A DNA stretch of 64,000 bases from Porticoccaceae bacterium (GTDB lineage Bacteria; Pseudomonadota; Gammaproteobacteria; Pseudomonadales; Porticoccaceae). Positions within the stretch are counted from its first letter, which is position 1. The number at the start of each line of letters is the position of its first letter. The translations under genes and the position numbers were made by a program. The stretch lies in the NCBI GenBank assembly GCA_029242085.1, contig JAQWUP010000029.1:51974-115973 (forward strand). Direction: 5' to 3'. This document shows positions 20,903 through 29,969 of this stretch, in pieces. The notes below the pieces were generated by a model. It had not been told where the DNA came from. It searched no databases and saw only the letters and a program-made list of their open reading frames with translations.

Positions 20903-23401
20903 CTAAGATTTAGATCGCGGCTTTTTCTTTTTTCCAGTCCCTTTTTTCGCCATTGCAGTATTGCCCGAGCCCACTCTGGTTTTGCTGAGGCCAGGCTTGC
21001 GCTTCTTTGAGCCAGCCTTTTTCTTGCCCGCCGCTGCGGATTTCTTGCTCTGCTTGCCTCGACTCTTACGTTTTCTCTCATGCTCTGCCGCCATCTCTTT
21101 AGCAGTGGGAGAGGCCTTAACCTTTCTCGGGCTCTTTGAGGTGCCGCCACCATTGGTCTCAGCTTTACCTGTTTCAACCAATTCAAAATCAATTTTGCGC
21201 TCTTCCAAATTAACGCGAACCACTTTCACACTAAGCTTCTGCCCCAAACGAAATATCCGGCCGCTGCGCTCGCCCACCATACGGTGCTGGGAGGCCTCAT
21301 GGTAGTAATAGTCTTTGGGTAAGCCGGTAACATGGATCAAGCCCTCCACATAGAGGTCATCAAGCATAACGAACAGGCCAAACCCGGTAACCGCACTAAC
21401 CACACCGGTATACTGCTCGCCCACTCTGTCCATCAAGTATTCACACTTCAACCAATTGACAACATCTCGAGTGGCCTCATCGGCGCGCCGCTCTGTCACC
21501 GACAGATGCTCACCAACATTGTTCAAACGCTCAATCTCATAGGGATAGATGGCTTGCGTCGCTAAAGTGCCTGCACCTTCCACGCGCTGAACATGGGATA
21601 TTTTCTTTTTGCTTCTTATCAGGCTGCGAATCGCCCGATGGACCAGCAAATCGGCATAGCGACGAATGGGGGAGGTAAAGTGTGTGTAGGCATCAAATGC
21701 TAAACCGAAATGACCTAGATTTTCCGGCTGATAAACCGCCTGACTCATAGAGCGAAGCATAACGGTCTGAATAACTGTCGCGTCGTCACGACCTTTGATC
21801 GAGCGCAGTACTCGCTGGTAGTCCTCAGGCTGAGGATCGTCACCACCACCAAGCCCTATCCCCAACTCCCCAAGAAAATCGCGCACGGATGACAGTCGCT
21901 CTTCGCTGGGACCCTCATGAACTCTAAACAATGCGGGGATTTTCACTTTCTCTAAAAACTCTGCCGAACAAACATTGGCACATAGCATGCACTCTTCAAT
22001 AAGGCGGTGAGCCTCGGTGCGGTCAACGGGAATAATTTGACTGATCTTGCGCTGTCCATCAAACAGGATACGTGTTTCTTTAGTATCAAAATCAATGGCG
22101 CCCCGCTTGGCGCGACGACGGTGAAGCACTTTATACATATCGTGCAATGCATCGACCTGAGGCACTATCGAAGCAAATTGTTTGCGCACACCTGAGTCAT
22201 TACCCTTTTCCTTCTCGGCAATGATATGCGCCACCTGGGTATAGGTCATCCGCGCATGAGAATGCATAACGGCCTCAGAAAACTGGTAGCGAGTAATATC
22301 ACCTTCTGCGCTGACCTGCATCTCACAGACCATACAGAGTCGGTCTTCGGCGGGATTTAAAGAACATAGCCCATTGGAGAGTTTTTCTGGCAGCATGGGC
22401 ACTACATGATTGGGAAAGTACACTGAATTGCCGCGCTCAAAGGCTTCTTTATCAAGAGCCGAGCCAACACCAACGTAATGAGACACATCGGCAATAGCGA
22501 CAGTCAGGGTCCAGCCACCACGAGGCTTGGGATAGCAGTGCACCGCGTCATCGAAGTCTCGAGCATCTTCTCCATCGATCGTAATCAAAGGTGTTTTTCT
22601 GAGATCAACGCGAAATCCCGGATCCTGCACCTGATCGGGGATTGCATCAGTTTCAATCACAACTTCCTCATTCCAAATATGGGGAATGCCATAGTTGCGA
22701 ATGGACATTTCAACTTCTAATCCCGGATCCAAGTGCTCGCCCAACACCTCTGTGATATGCCCTACCGGTAAACTATTGCGTGAAGGTGGCTCAATAATAT
22801 CCACTACCACTATCTGACCGGTCTTAGCCGCACCCTGCCCATCTGCAGGTATAAGGATATCCTGGCTAATACGAGGATTATCAGCCCGCACAAAGTTAAT
22901 ACCACTCTCGCGGAAATAGCGCCCAACAATCTGCAGCGTATTGCGCTCAACCACATCTACCAGACTCCCTTCGGGACGACCCCGTCGATCCCAACCGGCA
23001 ATTCGCACTAAGACGATATCCCCGTCGAATACACGGCGCATTTGGGAACTGGAGAGATAAATATCCTGACCATCACCCTCTACTGGATGCACAAACCCAT
23101 AACCTTCAGGATGACCAATCACTCGACCTTTGACTAAATTAAGCTTGTCCAATGTCCCGTAGCCACCGCGACGATTGCGCGCCACCTGACCATCGCGCTC
23201 CATGGCACGCAGGCGTCGGCGCATAGCTTCAATCTGCTCTTCATCAGTTAGATTAAGGGCGACACAAATTTCTTCATGGGTCACAGGACCAGCACTTTCG
23301 CGCAGGTAATCGAGAACAAATTCACGACTAGGTACCGGGCGATCGTAGTTGGCCGCTTCTCGGGAGGCAAATGGGTCAAAGTTTTTGCTTTTTTTAGACA
23401 T
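20903..23401 (-). CDS. rnr: Ribonuclease R
   Basis: RNase R is a processive 3'-5' exoribonuclease that degrades structured RNA. The 832-residue protein has an N-terminal winged-helix part, two cold-shock domains, the RNB catalytic domain with TIDGEDARDFDDAV (metal-binding Asp cluster), an S1 domain (about 660-740) and an extended Lys/Arg/Ser-rich tail of about 90 residues. Such basic tails help RNase R bind structured RNA. The gene is convergent with DUF484 and is separated by an upstream terminator from whatever is transcribed in the 23.6-23.95 kb gap. Confidence 0.97.
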   Translation of the reverse strand: MSKKSKNFDPFASREAANYDRPVPSREFVLDYLRESAGPVTHEEICVALNLTDEEQIEAMRRRLRAMERDGQVARNRRGGYGTLDKLNLVKGRVIGHPEGYGFVHPVEGDGQDIYLSSSQMRRVFDGDIVLVRIAGWDRRGRPEGSLVDVVERNTLQIVGRYFRESGINFVRADNPRISQDILIPADGQGAAKTGQIVVVDIIEPPSRNSLPVGHITEVLGEHLDPGLEVEMSIRNYGIPHIWNEEVVIETDAIPDQVQDPGFRVDLRKTPLITIDGEDARDFDDAVHCYPKPRGGWTLTVAIADVSHYVGVGSALDKEAFERGNSVYFPNHVVPMLPEKLSNGLCSLNPAEDRLCMVCEMQVSAEGDITRYQFSEAVMHSHARMTYTQVAHIIAEKEKGNDSGVRKQFASIVPQVDALHDMYKVLHRRRAKRGAIDFDTKETRILFDGQRKISQIIPVDRTEAHRLIEECMLCANVCSAEFLEKVKIPALFRVHEGPSEERLSSVRDFLGELGIGLGGGDDPQPEDYQRVLRSIKGRDDATVIQTVMLRSMSQAVYQPENLGHFGLAFDAYTHFTSPIRRYADLLVHRAIRSLIRSKKKISHVQRVEGAGTLATQAIYPYEIERLNNVGEHLSVTERRADEATRDVVNWLKCEYLMDRVGEQYTGVVSAVTGFGLFVMLDDLYVEGLIHVTGLPKDYYYHEASQHRMVGERSGRIFRLGQKLSVKVVRVNLEERKIDFELVETGKAETNGGGTSKSPRKVKASPTAKEMAAEHERKRKSRGKQSKKSAAAGKKKAGSKKRKPGLSKTRVGSGNTAMAKKGTGKKKKPRSKS

Positions 23402-23561: not shown

Positions 23562-23587
23562 TAAAAAAGCCCCGTAAAAACGAGGCT
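23562..23587 (-). terminator. Intrinsic terminator in the rnr-kinase gap
   Basis: On the minus strand AGCCTCGT, a TTTT loop and ACGGGGCT form an 8-bp stem with one mismatch, followed by TTTTTT. It lies 160 bp upstream of rnr and 370 bp after the hybrid kinase stop, so it must end a transcript that comes from the kinase operon or starts in the gap. Confidence 0.75.
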
Positions 23588-23760
23588 CAAATAAAACTGG
23601 ATGGAATAACATTAAAATCTAAAGAGGGATTGACCCGCGCCTTCCATAGCGCACGACATCCTAGTCGTCTGTACTGCACAACTGGTAGCAAACGAAAGTA
23701 AAAGTAACTGAGCGAGCATCTGTCCTTTGAAGTCAACTCCCTGTCAACCGAGCTCTATAA
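23562..23760 (-). ncRNA. Candidate Csr/Rsm-type regulatory small RNA
   Basis: This 554-bp gap between rnr and the hybrid kinase has no convincing ORF. Read on the minus strand toward the terminator at 23562-23587, it contains a hairpin ACGAC/GTCGT whose loop is UAGGAU, so the site reads ACUAGGAUGU, close to the known CsrA-preferred ACARGGAUGU. The next hairpin is GCGC/GCGC with loop UAUGGAAG, and upstream are AAAGGACA and CAGGGAG. Multiple GGA motifs, two of them in hairpin loops, plus an intrinsic terminator resemble RsmY/RsmZ/CsrB RNAs. A half-site TGTAAG of the GacA/UvrY box lies at 23787-23792. The 5' end is only a guess (a weak TATAGA at 23754-23759). No homology search was possible. Confidence 0.38.
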
Positions 23761-23899
23761 ACATCCTGTCTATCAGTACCACCTTTCTTACAGCAGTGTA
23801 GGTCTGTGTATTTTTACCAGTAAAGTCCCTGTTAAAGCTTCATGCCAAGGAGTCAACGTACATTTAAGATAAGACAGTCAGGCGAGAAAAGAAATTACA

Positions 23900-23955: not shown

Positions 23956-26196
23956 CTAACAGGAATCTGGAACCAGATAGCCCTCAACATGTTCACGGAT
24001 GCGCTGTACTTTCTTGATATTCTCTTCTGTATCCAAGGCGCCATAAGCAGCTCTAAATTCCAGTACCTGCTCTCTCAGCTCAGTCATACCATAGAGCCCA
24101 CATAGGCCCATAAGATCATGGATAATCTGGCGCTGGCTACTGTTTTCCCCTGATCTCAGCTGCAGATCCAGCTTATCAAGGTTCTCATACAGTGCCTCTT
24201 TTAACTCTTCGACCGGTATCACTGAAGCTAGTAGTCCGCCTCCGGAATTTGGGCTGATTTCGTTCATATCATTTAGCGAACTGAGAATACTGTTCACCAG
24301 ACTCACTTCATCAACTGGCTTAGATTGAACACTGACAGCGCCAGCCGTTAGCATGCGCTGTTGCTCCATAGGCGTTATATCAGCGGTCAAGCCAATAATT
24401 GGCGGGCTTTCGCCAGACTGTTGCATAATCGTTTCACAGGCGGTGACACCGTCGACAACCGGCATGTGGATATCCATTAGCACCACATCCACATGGAGAT
24501 CACCTGCAATCTCAATCGCTTCCAAACCGTTATTAGCCACCAGACAATCAGCGCCATAGCCGCGCAAAAGTTTGACAATTAATTTCTGATTAAAAGGGTT
24601 ATCTTCCGCCAATAAAATAGACAATCCAGCCAAAACTTGCTCAGCAAGCACCGCTTGATCATCCTCTAACGGCGATAGGGTATTTACTTCAAAAAGTCGG
24701 CAGGTAAAACTAACCACCGTACCCTTACCTATCTCGCTCTCAATTTTGACGTCCCCGCCCATAGTCTGCGCTAGGCGCTTGCATATTGACAGGCCTAGAC
24801 CTGTGCCACCGAAACGACGATTAATCGAGGTATCTTCCTGAGCGAAGGGGTCAAACAATAAAGCTATTTTATCTGCGGCTATGCCTTTGCCAGAATCAGT
24901 TACGGCGCAGTCCAGAACCACATGATCACCGTCACTCGTCTGCCGCTTAATGTCGACTGAGACAAATCCGCTATCAGTGAACTTAATCGCATTACTCACC
25001 AGATTACTGAAAATCTGCGCCAAACGCACAGGGTCGCCGCTCAACTGCCTAGGCACATCATCGGCAATATTGCATGTTAGCGAGAGATTTTTTTCGTCGG
25101 CGCGGGGACGATGAATTGCTACTAAATCAGTAAACCACTGATCCATGTCAAAATTTATTTTTTCTAAAGTAAAGCCACCTAAATGGGCTTTGGAAAATTC
25201 CAAAATATCATCAATCATGGTCAGCAGCATAGTGGAAGAACTATCAATAATTCGCAAATGCTCTTGCCGTTTGGCAGGATCCTCTTCTGTAGCAAGTAGC
25301 TTCGAAAACCCGATCACCGCCGTTAAAGGGGTGCGCAATTCATGACTCATTCGAGCCAAAAACTGATCCTGAGCTTCCATAGCCTCTTCAAGTTCTATCA
25401 ATGTGATCTGCAACTGTACCGTGGCACGCGCTATTTCACTTTGCATATGCACATTGGATTCTCTAACGCTGGTCGCAAGCTGATTGATACCATAGGCCAG
25501 TTTACGAATCTCCATCGGACCATTTTCTGCGGCCAGCGAATCAAGTCCGCCAGCCTCCATCAGCTCAACAGTCTCAGTTAAGCTCTCTACCGGCCGCGAA
25601 ATACTGCGACCAATTCGCATCGACAGCCATGCAGCAATTAATAAACTCATGGTGGTCACAATTAAAGCGCCAAAAATTGCTTCTCGCTGCTCTTGCAGCA
25701 GTATCTTATCCGTGAGCTCAATGATTACCCAGCCCAAGGATTCAGCCTCAGGCTGCCCGACCTCGTCATAGTCCATAATTGGGATATCGTTGATCGTGAT
25801 AGGTGCGAAAAAATACCAGTGATGATCAATAAAAAATGGTAGACCTGAATCGAATGATCCAGAAATAAGCTGGGTGGATAATTTCACATCACCAATGCGC
25901 ACGGTACTTTTATCAAGCTCATTGTGAAAAATAATACCTGATACCGATGGAATATCGAGAACCGAGTAGCCCAGTGTTTCAAGCATAGCCTGATTGCCAG
26001 AGAACAAGGCAAACTCTGCATTTGAGGCCATTTGATGAACCGCGACCCGACCCGTATCTTGCAGATTATTGAGCAATACTGTTCGCTGACTGGTAATTAT
26101 GTACCAACCAAGGACCAGACTTAATAAGGTCAGTGGAATCAATGTTGTAAGTAGCAGTCGAGCATGAATACTTGCTGGTTTTCGATTGTCTCTCAT
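23956..26196 (-). CDS. Hybrid sensor histidine kinase (HAMP-HisKA-HATPase-REC-Hpt, BarA/GacS-like layout)
   Basis: A 746-residue inner-membrane kinase: TM1 at about 13-33, a periplasmic sensor region (about 34-172) without a domain I recognise, TM2 at about 174-192, HAMP (about 193-245), a coiled coil, HisKA with the phospho-His at about 285 in MSHELRTP, HATPase_c (GTGLGLSICKRLAQTMGG), a receiver with intact Asp in VVLMDIHMPVVDG and a C-terminal Hpt-like domain with His at about 693 (IIHDLMGLCGLYG). The order equals that of BarA/GacS. It starts 2 bp after the binding-protein gene, and the LuxR-type regulator at the head of the operon is its probable partner. The signal sensed is unknown. Confidence 0.9.
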   Translation of the reverse strand: MRDNRKPASIHARLLLTTLIPLTLLSLVLGWYIITSQRTVLLNNLQDTGRVAVHQMASNAEFALFSGNQAMLETLGYSVLDIPSVSGIIFHNELDKSTVRIGDVKLSTQLISGSFDSGLPFFIDHHWYFFAPITINDIPIMDYDEVGQPEAESLGWVIIELTDKILLQEQREAIFGALIVTTMSLLIAAWLSMRIGRSISRPVESLTETVELMEAGGLDSLAAENGPMEIRKLAYGINQLATSVRESNVHMQSEIARATVQLQITLIELEEAMEAQDQFLARMSHELRTPLTAVIGFSKLLATEEDPAKRQEHLRIIDSSSTMLLTMIDDILEFSKAHLGGFTLEKINFDMDQWFTDLVAIHRPRADEKNLSLTCNIADDVPRQLSGDPVRLAQIFSNLVSNAIKFTDSGFVSVDIKRQTSDGDHVVLDCAVTDSGKGIAADKIALLFDPFAQEDTSINRRFGGTGLGLSICKRLAQTMGGDVKIESEIGKGTVVSFTCRLFEVNTLSPLEDDQAVLAEQVLAGLSILLAEDNPFNQKLIVKLLRGYGADCLVANNGLEAIEIAGDLHVDVVLMDIHMPVVDGVTACETIMQQSGESPPIIGLTADITPMEQQRMLTAGAVSVQSKPVDEVSLVNSILSSLNDMNEISPNSGGGLLASVIPVEELKEALYENLDKLDLQLRSGENSSQRQIIHDLMGLCGLYGMTELREQVLEFRAAYGALDTEENIKKVQRIREHVEGYLVPDSC

Positions 26197-26198
26197 CC

Positions 26199-27203
26199 TT
26201 AATCAGCCTCTAAGACAGCGCGATAAAACTGCTCGCTTTTTAAATCGATATTCAAATTACTGGCCACTGACGAATTGAAGCTTATAGAAAAATAAGCAGC
26301 AGTATGAGAACCACCGGTATCTCCTAGAAATTCATTATCAATAAATTCAGCAGTTTGCTGAGCAACATTTTCAACTGAAGAGTAGATAGCAGCAAGTGCA
26401 CCAGCATCTAGATAGGTTTTTGAATAGGCAATGACTGGAACCTTGTATCTGTAGCTAAGCTGCAAAATCCACTTTGCGGTGGCAATGTTGACCCGTCGAT
26501 TATCCGGCACCGGTATGAAGACATCACTGCGTTTAATTATCGGCTCCAACAGGTGAATTGGATTATCCTCCAATCCTATATTTATCATCTTGGGAACCAT
26601 ATTGGCATCTGTTACATACTGAGCAAAATCATCTTCCCTTTTCTTCGATGAAGGCCCAGTCATTACCCCGGCAATTTTCGCCTCGGGTAGTATCAATTTT
26701 GCCAATCTGATACTTCGCTGGAAGGGCTGATCAAGGCAGATGGCAGATACATTAGCAGCATATGCTTGCATATTAGAGCCATAATATTTTTTGCTCAGCA
26801 AATTAAATGCGCTATCAGTGATTAATACAGCGAGCACTGGCTGTTGTGGTTTCGATTTCATCACTGTTTCAGAGGCCATAGCACCAACGGTGACAATAAA
26901 GTCTGGCTTAAAGTTGAGATTTCTAGTGACAAAATTCTTTTCTACATCGGTAACAAATTGATAGATAGTCCCTGTCTGGCCATGCAAATTTCGCTGCACT
27001 AATGCAGTGAGATCTGTATAAATTTTGGCCTGCTTACTGATAACAAACAGAACGCGGCTTTCCTTGCTAACATTTGATTCAGCAATAACTGTAGGTACTG
27101 AGCAAATAAATAGTGCAACCACCAATACCTGAGTTTTAATCACGCATTGCAACTTAGAGAGGGACGCTTTAAACGACATCTCAGACGAATCCCAATCCAG
27201 CAT
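26199..27203 (-). CDS. Orphan ABC-type periplasmic substrate-binding-like protein
   Basis: A 334-residue exported protein (326 if the second Met at 27179 is the start, which puts a normal n-region before the hydrophobic VLVVALFICSVPTVIAES). The mature part resembles the ABC-transporter substrate-binding family of COG2984/TrpX type: VLFVISKQAKIY, FIVTVGAMASETVMK, VLAVLITDSAF and VPVPDNRRVN-like segments with two Rossmann-type lobes. No permease or ATPase gene is nearby. It lies 25 bp after the TonB receptor and 2 bp before the hybrid kinase, so a sensory rather than a transport role is likely (inference). Confidence 0.75.
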   Translation of the reverse strand: MLDWDSSEMSFKASLSKLQCVIKTQVLVVALFICSVPTVIAESNVSKESRVLFVISKQAKIYTDLTALVQRNLHGQTGTIYQFVTDVEKNFVTRNLNFKPDFIVTVGAMASETVMKSKPQQPVLAVLITDSAFNLLSKKYYGSNMQAYAANVSAICLDQPFQRSIRLAKLILPEAKIAGVMTGPSSKKREDDFAQYVTDANMVPKMINIGLEDNPIHLLEPIIKRSDVFIPVPDNRRVNIATAKWILQLSYRYKVPVIAYSKTYLDAGALAAIYSSVENVAQQTAEFIDNEFLGDTGGSHTAAYFSISFNSSVASNLNIDLKSEQFYRAVLEAD

Positions 27204-27228: not shown

Positions 27229-29262
27229 TCAGGGGATACCTATTTCAAAACCAAGAACATATTGAGTTTTAAAGGCATTGATTTCATAGAACTCAAAATA
27301 ATCAGATCCCACATTTTGTACAGTGAAAGATAGCTCTACATTTGAGTTATTTAAATTGATTTTTTTAGCTGCTTTCAAATCAACACGGGTGTACTTGTCT
27401 AACTGAGAACCCTTTGGATGTCTCGTACCAGACTTATAATTAATCATGGTACTCAGACTCAATCTATCGTCGGTTGTATAATTCACTAGCAATCCCGCAC
27501 TGTGCCCTGGCGAATTGACCTCTAGATCCCGGTATTCAACGTGTGGGGTACTCCGCCAAAGTCGCTTACCAGTAGATTTCACATAGCTATAGTTAGCATG
27601 AACTAGAAAGTTATTATTGGGTCGATACTGAGCCTGCCACTCAGCACCTTGAACGTCGATACTTTCAGTGTTGTCACGTATATTGATTTGTCCATCGATA
27701 TCCGCATACTGCTCTCGACGCTCACCAATAACACCTCTTAGTTTTTCATTGAAAATACGCAGATCGATGGACAGACTAGCATTTAAAAATGAGCCCATAT
27801 AACCAATTTCCGAACTCTTTAGCTGTTCAGGGTTAATATGTGGATCAGAAACAATACTGCCGTCTAGAATCATGTCTTCGTTATAGCGAATATAGGTTTT
27901 CTGATTACTCTCAAGAAGCGTTGGCGCACGATAACCACGATTAAATGCTAACCTTAACGTTTGGTTATCCGCTAACTGGAAGTTACTCGCACCACGGAAG
28001 GAGCTAAATTTTTCTGAATCATCATGTTCACTAATAACCCCTCCATTGAGCACAATGCGATCGCTTGCAGTCCACTGAAAATTGGCATAGGCTCGAATAG
28101 AATTTTCGGAAATACCGTCCTGGGAATCAAAAAAATCTTCACTCTTTACACGGTCGAACCTTAACCCAATACCCGACACAGCTCGGAAGTCATCCCATTG
28201 AGTAAATAGCGTTCTGAATTCTGCATCCCATCTCTCTGACTCACCGCTGCTCTCACCATCTATAATCAGCTTATCCGGAAGCTGTAAAAGTGCAGTTTTG
28301 GTTGGGCTATCAGGCAACCCCGCTAGCGCCTCATGAAAACCGAGTGGTTCCACGTAATCCGTAATCTCTAATAAATTATGATAGACGATAAATTGGTGTT
28401 TATTGCCCTTTTCAGTTAAGTGATCCCACTGTAAATGCTGGTATTGATAGTCTAATTTACGCGGAAATGAATCTCTTTTGCCAACACCTATATCACTGTC
28501 ACTGGCCCCAAATTTTATTTCCAGACTATTGCTGGCAGAGGGAGTCCACAGCCCTTTAAACGACAGCGTAATCGTCTCTGCACCATCATCGAGGATCAAA
28601 TTGTTAAAATCATCAAATCCTTCATTACTTCGGTAGCTCAGTCTAGTGCGGTAATTTAGTTCGCCCGCTGCTCCAGCGTAACTTAATGAGCCATTGCGGA
28701 TGCTATTGCTGCCACCCTCACTGCGCAGATTCCAGCCACTATCAATAAGTGGAGAGCGAGTAATAATATTTATTGACGCCAGAAAAGCGTTACTACCATC
28801 CGCGGGGGCATTGGCTCCGCGAACGACTTCAATATGATCGATATCAGCGAGATCTACGCCCAATGTAGTCCATTCCACCGATGAGAAAAGCGATTCATAG
28901 ACCGATCTTCCGTCGACTTTCACCTCCAGTCGTCGGGGATAGCTATTACCCAAGGTATGGTAGGTTACCCCGGGGCGATTGGCATTGACGAAATAGGTCT
29001 GTAAACCCGGCACCATACGCAGTAAATCGACCACATCCAGTGCTGGAGAGGCATCTATCATACGCCGATCAATGATGGTCACTGAGGCTGGTGCCTCTGG
29101 TAGAGTCTGATCCATATGGGTAACACTATTGACTCGCTGGATATCCACCAACAGATCGCCCTCCGTTACCATAGAATCACCTACGGTAAATTCAGATATC
29201 ACCAATGCCATTACAAGAAGCATTGGAGCTGTATTTTTTTTTGTTGTTTTGAATATCATCAT
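27229..29262 (-). CDS. TonB-dependent receptor of a regulatory operon
   Basis: A 677-residue outer-membrane receptor. A signal sequence covers about residues 10-28; DLLVDIQRVNSVTH shortly after it is a plausible TonB box. The plug domain (about 50-160) has PASVTIIDRRMI, DLLRMVPGLQ, VDGRSVYESLF and IEVVRGANAPADGSNA; the rest is a beta-barrel ending in YVLGFEIGIP, slightly atypical because the last residue is not aromatic. Ligand unknown. It is preceded by a LuxR-type regulator (35-bp gap) and followed by the binding protein and kinase genes. Confidence 0.88.
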   Translation of the reverse strand: MMIFKTTKKNTAPMLLVMALVISEFTVGDSMVTEGDLLVDIQRVNSVTHMDQTLPEAPASVTIIDRRMIDASPALDVVDLLRMVPGLQTYFVNANRPGVTYHTLGNSYPRRLEVKVDGRSVYESLFSSVEWTTLGVDLADIDHIEVVRGANAPADGSNAFLASINIITRSPLIDSGWNLRSEGGSNSIRNGSLSYAGAAGELNYRTRLSYRSNEGFDDFNNLILDDGAETITLSFKGLWTPSASNSLEIKFGASDSDIGVGKRDSFPRKLDYQYQHLQWDHLTEKGNKHQFIVYHNLLEITDYVEPLGFHEALAGLPDSPTKTALLQLPDKLIIDGESSGESERWDAEFRTLFTQWDDFRAVSGIGLRFDRVKSEDFFDSQDGISENSIRAYANFQWTASDRIVLNGGVISEHDDSEKFSSFRGASNFQLADNQTLRLAFNRGYRAPTLLESNQKTYIRYNEDMILDGSIVSDPHINPEQLKSSEIGYMGSFLNASLSIDLRIFNEKLRGVIGERREQYADIDGQINIRDNTESIDVQGAEWQAQYRPNNNFLVHANYSYVKSTGKRLWRSTPHVEYRDLEVNSPGHSAGLLVNYTTDDRLSLSTMINYKSGTRHPKGSQLDKYTRVDLKAAKKINLNNSNVELSFTVQNVGSDYFEFYEINAFKTQYVLGFEIGIP

Positions 29263-29297: not shown

Positions 29298-29969
29298 CTA
29301 TCTATTCGATTCAGATGTTTCAGATAAGCCTAATTTTTGGCCCAAAATACCGGCCTGAGTACGGTTACTTAAACCCAGCGCCCTTAACATGGCACTGACA
29401 TGAACTTTTACTGTGTTCTCAGAAAGATCGAGTTCACGAGCAATTTGTTTATTGGATCGTCCCTGAGTGATACAGAGTAAAATATCCATCTGCCGCTGTG
29501 TTACCAGACCGGCAATAATTTCAATATCAGCACCAGAATCAACTTCATCCATAACTCTGGCCACTTCTGGCATTGACTCCACCAGAGATGCCGGAACATA
29601 CCGCTCGCCCGTCAAGGCCTTGGAAATAGCGTCAAAAAGTGCATCTTTAGGCGCTGATTTAGTTACAAATCCCGCGGCACCAAAGTCGAGACATTTACGA
29701 ATATGAGCAGGGTTTTCTGTCGCAGACAGGACTATTATCGGCAGTTTTGGGTAGCTCTCACAGAGCATCTCAATAAAGTTAAAACCACCTGCTCCGCCGG
29801 GCATAAAAAGATCGACGATGGCAAGATCAATAGTGTTTTGGGCAAGAATGGTTAAGGCGGTATCACCGTGGTCAGTGGTGGTAACTTCAATATTGTCAAA
29901 CTCTTCGCTCAGTGTCGCTTTAAGACCAAGACAAACGAAAGCATGATCATCTACGATGAGAACGTGCAT
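29298..29969 (-). CDS. NarL/LuxR-family response regulator
   Basis: A 223-residue two-domain regulator. The receiver (about 1-120) has the acidic pair D7/D8 in LIVDDH, phosphoacceptor Asp53 in AIVDLFMPGG, Ser in IVLSATE and Lys in FVTKSAPKDAL. The C-terminal LuxR-type HTH (about 150-215) reads LTQRQMDILLCITQGRSNKQIARELDLSENTVKVHVS with the normal recognition helix. It heads a minus-strand unit with the TonB receptor, binding protein and hybrid kinase; phosphotransfer from the kinase's Hpt domain is the simplest model. Confidence 0.93.
   Translation of the reverse strand: MHVLIVDDHAFVCLGLKATLSEEFDNIEVTTTDHGDTALTILAQNTIDLAIVDLFMPGGAGGFNFIEMLCESYPKLPIIVLSATENPAHIRKCLDFGAAGFVTKSAPKDALFDAISKALTGERYVPASLVESMPEVARVMDEVDSGADIEIIAGLVTQRQMDILLCITQGRSNKQIARELDLSENTVKVHVSAMLRALGLSNRTQAGILGQKLGLSETSESNR

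Follow-up and report, generated by a model that had tools for sequence, protein, structure and literature searches.

A structured RNA, probably a decoy for CsrA, in the kinase–rnr gap of a marine SAR92-clade bacterium

In a marine bacterium of the SAR92 clade, a gene-free gap separates the gene of a sensor kinase from rnr, which encodes RNase R, and raises the question of whether an RNA of its own is encoded there, and of which kind. The window, i.e., the whole 64,000-nucleotide stretch of DNA that was analyzed, belongs to an incomplete Porticoccaceae genome (G000; 2.19 Mb, 83% complete) from the SAR92/HTCC2207 genus. On its minus strand, the gene for a LuxR/NarL-type response regulator with Response_reg and GerE domains (29298-29969) is followed by those for a TonB-dependent-receptor-like protein (27229-29262), an ABC-type substrate-binding protein (26199-27203), and a hybrid histidine kinase (23956-26196), then by the gap, and finally by rnr (20903-23401), a long ORF with homologs in relatives. 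The receptor-like and substrate-binding proteins belong to the kinase operon. The former was recognized as an ORF with syntenic homologs, its family being read from its own sequence, and the latter matched PF04392 and is syntenic in RNA-bearing relatives. The kinase comprises HAMP, HisKA, HATPase, and receiver domains (Pfam, NCBIfam), together with a weak C-terminal Hpt domain (E = 0.0045, below the Pfam cut-off). Its best NCBIfam model is BarA, scored at 406 bits and hence below the 890-bit cut-off, which agrees with the BarA/GacS-like kinase that a first-pass annotation had placed next to the gap.

That annotation proposed a Csr/Rsm-family small RNA at 23562-23795. The element is real, and the proposed span covers only its 3' third. 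A DNA search of relatives revealed a conserved block that starts just past the kinase stop codon and exceeds the span first noted. In the oriented alignment, an upstream string ACTAATACTTTAGTATTAACTCGTCAGTGTAAT is followed by a variable leader of ~30 nt, a core of ~235 nt that ends in GGGTCAAT, and a terminator. The conserved structured core was located at 23861-23625 on the minus strand, where covariance model R1 matched it with 251 bits after genome coordinates had been converted to those of the window. Together with a promoter-like element and the terminator, this core delimits a predicted transcript of ~328 nt (~23887-23560, minus strand). The proposed covariance check against RsmX/Y/Z and CsrB/C gave no gathering-score match in the window or in the related RNA loci, and no other known Rfam family reached its gathering score at these places. 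The gap between the two genes is occupied by a structured small RNA that had not been catalogued before.

A consensus structure of this RNA was obtained by applying RNAalifold to 12 oriented sequences. It comprises 53 pairs, for which 97.3% of the cells are paired, and consists of a long-range helix (GUUGACUC/GGGUCAAU) as its closing element, a multibranch interior, and two 3' hairpins. Two-sided changes were detected at 17 pairs, for which shuffling gave a mean of 8.8 and none of 500 shuffles was as high. Slid controls showed far lower values than the real alignment for the consensus pairs, a comparison that is favorable by construction because the structure came from that very alignment. In each of the 12 sequences, full pairing was observed for the AGGGA hairpin, for the helix that closes the domain, and for the two hairpins at the 3' end. 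Helix 8 (GUUGAC-AGGGA-GUUGAC) was 100% paired with two compensated pairs, and the stem of the GCGCU-AUGGAA-GGCGC hairpin exhibited a G-C to A-U compensation in 4 of the 12. Conservation in close relatives, on which the first-pass annotation had staked its claim, was thus observed for the GGA loops, the stems, and the terminators, with compensatory changes. When the window RNA was folded singly, its minimum-energy fold departed from the consensus, and just three of the six GGAs were mostly unpaired.

Six GGA sites are conserved in at least 75% of 24 sequences, all of them within consensus loops. On the minus strand of the window, site 1 (ACAGGGAC, 23826-23828) is present in 24 of the 24 sequences, site 2 in the hairpin loop AGGAU (23764-23766) in 20, site 3 in the hairpin GUUGAC-AGGGA-GUUGAC (23738-23740) in 23, and site 4 (AAAGGACAG, 23723-23725) in 22. 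Sites 5 (23659-23661; 22 of 24) and 6 (23643-23645; 24 of 24) are carried by the hairpins ACGAC-UAGGAU-GUCGU and GCGCU-AUGGAA-GGCGC, which are the two small GGA-loop hairpins that had been pointed out at first reading; the remark that ACUAGGAUGU is one base from ACARGGAUGU also holds. GGA is the trinucleotide with the most conserved sites, the second being the overlapping AGG with four. Of the 149 GGAs, 98% were located in consensus loops, versus 39% for all trinucleotides. The A-N-GGA motif occurred 4.33 times per RNA versus 1.28 times in dinucleotide shuffles, none of 200 being as high, so that the repetition of GGA motifs is indeed beyond chance. Several GGAs exposed in hairpin loops characterize the CsrB/RsmZ-type functional class, and the six conserved sites correspond to this feature. 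Such a restriction of conserved GGAs to loops is what one expects of sites bound by CsrA/RsmA. Very probably, we are dealing with a new RNA family encoded by a free-standing gene and working like CsrB/RsmZ, that is, as a sponge for the global regulator CsrA.

As a point against the sponge reading, most genomes keep the stretch around ACAGACCUACACUGCUGU almost unchanged, more so than the GGA loops account for. Near-invariance across the genus was also observed for the loop segment CUACACUGCU (window 23806-23789; A2 columns 56-71), which the sponge model does not explain. A trans-acting small RNA of the Hfq type, which acts by base-pairing instead of as a protein sponge, would fit this single-stranded-looking segment, as well as the weak Rfam E-value matches to RyhB, MicA, and GcvB. 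However, these matches rest on the generic terminator and stay below the gathering scores, and what is conserved above all is GGA in the loops of hairpins, in a family that grows by repeating those hairpins. A base-pairing RNA in place of a sponge is thus improbable, and base-pairing may be an additional function.

The 3' end of the RNA is formed by a predicted minus-strand intrinsic terminator at 23588-23567, followed by a T run, as had been noted in the first-pass annotation. Relatives possess terminators in the equivalent place, which often differ in sequence. Between the terminator and rnr, a promoter-like element of rnr (TTTACTC...CATAGACT) is conserved, and no tRNA was found upstream of rnr. 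A structured RNA with a terminator that precedes rnr, in the same orientation, could also be viewed as a cis-acting rnr leader or attenuator, whose terminator governs read-through into RNase R. The rnr element is however kept even in RNA-free genomes or those with a gap of ~120 nt, and rnr probably has its own promoter because its element occurs in genomes without the RNA. Furthermore, the terminators differ among relatives and no alternative pairing is visible, and a leader does not predict the restriction of GGA conservation to loops, all of which makes this explanation very unlikely. In a set of loci (L095, L105-L107, L214-L217, and L223), genes for a response regulator and a kinase are located directly before rnr with a gap of ~120 nt; the receptor and binding-protein genes and the first RNA are absent there.

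The promoter region of the RNA contains a conserved palindrome, TAATAC-TTTA-GTATTA (TAATACTTTAGTATTA), at 23924-23909 on the minus strand, which is the sole match in the window at three or fewer mismatches. The pattern TARTNC-N4-GTAYTA-N5-TCAGTGTAAT was found upstream of the RNA in nearly all RNA-bearing genomes, and looser matches occur elsewhere too. A −10-like hexamer TGTAAT (23899-23894; 5/6 to TATAAT), contained in the string CGTCAGTGTAAT, is conserved in the 12-sequence alignment, and transcription probably starts at ~23887. At the level of sequence, the RNA lies between genes with a predicted promoter of its own and an intrinsic terminator, as is characteristic of the CsrA-sequestering RNA class. 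The palindrome is a candidate site for a dimeric (LuxR-type) response regulator. A TGTAAG half-site of the GacA box had been described upstream of the RNA, which could not be sustained: it sits inside the RNA (23792-23787), and relatives have TGTTTA or similar at this position. It was consequently rejected as a promoter element, the conserved element being the palindrome at 23924-23909. The complete GacA box TGTAAG-N6-CTTACA was not found upstream of the RNA, where the different palindrome is conserved.

By using model R1, the RNA was detected in 24 of the 50 genomes of the SAR92/HTCC2207 genus, and a 392-genome sample of the order gave only weak matches of 20–25 bits outside the genus. A submodule of ~170 nt containing the GGA hairpins is repeated in G048, G060, G037, and G001. 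In L036 the repeat has a period of 168 and 3.7 copies, and in L033 a period of 172 and 3.0 copies. G050 carries a duplication of the complete 236-nt unit. Up to four modules are arranged in tandem in the enlarged relatives, and the predicted transcripts of expanded relatives contain 13–21 GGAs (four cases counted). The RNA of HTCC2207 (G036) gave a low R1 score of 138 bits, which may reflect decay. At L219/G041, L221/G005, and L222/G010, the promoter element and synteny are kept, and the body of the RNA has diverged strongly; the diverged copies L221 and L222 no longer have GGA site 6.

Several of the extra palindrome matches were found to precede a second, unrelated RNA. Most of its loci follow uvrB, and in some genomes it precedes a UDP-glucose dehydrogenase gene (udg). 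This RNA is closed by a helix AGGAAGG/CCUUCC and contains hairpins with GGA loops, one of which, CAUC-AAGGAU-GAUG, is repeated; tandem modules are present here too (L256). Model R2 detected it in 15 of the 50 genomes, some of which carry the response regulator and lack the first RNA; one R2 match (L277 in G012) with neither uvrB nor udg as a neighbor was excluded from the co-occurrence count given below. Its loci are L256, L257, L259, L260, L265, L266, L275, L276, and L278-L283, most of which are preceded by a palindrome of this type. No Rfam match was obtained for the second RNA in the loci tested, and in the incomplete assembly of G000 (83% complete) uvrB was not found. One promoter element thus stands before two independent GGA-hairpin RNAs, and therefore strongly supports the Csr/Rsm-type reading of the first-pass annotation, which is also supported by the tandem GGA modules. 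The RNA follows the kinase gene immediately and in the same orientation, and could thus be a fragment processed from the 3' UTR of the kinase mRNA, binding CsrA by chance. This origin is very unlikely, as the conserved palindrome and −10-like string lie between the kinase stop codon and the RNA, the palindrome element also precedes an unrelated RNA at another locus, and the RNA persists where the kinase has shrunk to its C-terminal part. The palindrome was also observed before genes of ~50–60 aa proteins with GGA-rich leaders (L255, L258, L263, L264, and possibly L262), of which the L255 protein reads ...YDGGVEKFKSWLESLPFSQRQQLLKLIDDKLNR. These genes are possibly CsrA-controlled and in the same regulon.

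A CsrA sponge presupposes CsrA in the genome, and csrA was identified in G000 next to lysC (PF02599, 92 bits); its product is presumably close to the canonical E. coli CsrA sequence. In the genus, csrA is present in 42 of the 50 genomes. A GacA/UvrY ortholog above the NF007018 cut-off was found in none of 12 genus genomes (control: 1 of 14 genomes exceeds it), a count to be read with the 83% completeness of G000 in mind. The response regulator of the window was also rejected as GacA, since the family model gave 87.6 bits versus a cut-off of 280. This regulator was found in 34 of the 50 genomes. Either RNA is present in 28 of these 34 versus 5 of the 16 genomes without the regulator (Fisher p = 0.0009, phylogeny ignored). 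Among the five genomes with RNA and without regulator, G056 and G062 are incomplete, and G004, G036 (HTCC2207), and G054 are nearly complete. In the latter three (L004/G004, L207/G036, and L093/G054), the kinase is reduced to its C-terminal part, the RNA and palindrome are kept, and the regulator is absent from the genome. At the kinase truncation of L004 and L207, a gene for a small secreted-like protein (xVDLLSIW...) was observed, which is fused to the kinase remnant in L207. It is plausible that the operon-linked LuxR-type response regulator (29298-29969) activates the RNA; the assignment is insecure because G004, G036, and G054 have the RNA with no regulator and only a partial kinase.

The RNA family is placed outside the Rfam CsrB/RsmZ families and is not demonstrably GacA-controlled. 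For the CsrA sponge, we infer that the RNA is transcribed, that it binds and titrates CsrA, and which regulator activates it; its operation may be pictured as follows. A regulated promoter would be switched on, probably when a dimeric response regulator of the LuxR type binds TAATACTTTAGTATTA, and would produce an RNA of ~330 nt. This RNA would fold into a domain closed by the long-range helix, in which six GGAs, mostly as A-N-GGA, are exposed in loops. CsrA dimers would then bind the GGA loops and be titrated off their target mRNAs, by which CsrA repression would be relieved. In a wider picture, the SAR92 clade would have its own Csr decoy system, made of two unrelated RNA families with tandem modules (1–4 copies) and driven through the new palindrome by a regulator other than GacA. 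The operon with the TonB-type receptor and substrate-binding protein would sense uptake and thereby free CsrA, and the decoy capacity would evolve by module duplication. This picture is tentative, with a chance of being right as a whole that we put slightly short of even.

If the RNA is a sponge, it would provide a tangible entry point to the global control of gene expression after transcription in a clade of marine heterotrophs. The variable module number represents a natural series for testing the evolution of decoy capacity, and the palindrome with its linked regulator suggests an input into Csr without GacA. In the literature searched, no paper was found that ties SAR92 to CsrA or HTCC2207 to small RNAs. 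The Pf1, Pf2, and Pf3 Csr RNAs of Pseudoalteromonas, which have 25, 21, and 9 GGAs, were identified from their number of GGAs, their promoter, and their terminator and then verified (PMC11882849). Going by their description, they resemble the SAR92 RNAs in being marine and lineage-restricted, although they belong to a different order and the SAR92 RNAs are known from sequence alone. CsrB and CsrC of E. coli contain 22 and 14 GGAs, respectively (PMC11882849). The SAR92 RNAs share their repeated GGA hairpins, and the 13–21 GGAs of the expanded relatives fall in a comparable range, whereas the single-module form of the window has 6; no Rfam match links them, and the SAR92 RNAs expand through repetition of either a multihelix module of ~170 nt or the complete unit. 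The Pseudomonas RsmX/Y/Z RNAs are GacA-controlled, contain multiple GGA motifs that are unpaired, and are preceded by a palindromic sequence (PMC2375449). Like these RNAs of the Gac/Rsm system, the SAR92 RNA is intergenic, with several GGA loops, an upstream palindrome, a rho-independent terminator, and a BarA/GacS-like kinase, and more than one co-regulated RNA occurs per genome. It differs from RsmX/RsmY/RsmZ in that its palindrome TARTNC-N4-GTAYTA is not the GacA box, the linked regulator is not GacA, and Rfam gives no match; it is also larger, is closed by a long-range helix, and is strongly conserved in sequence.
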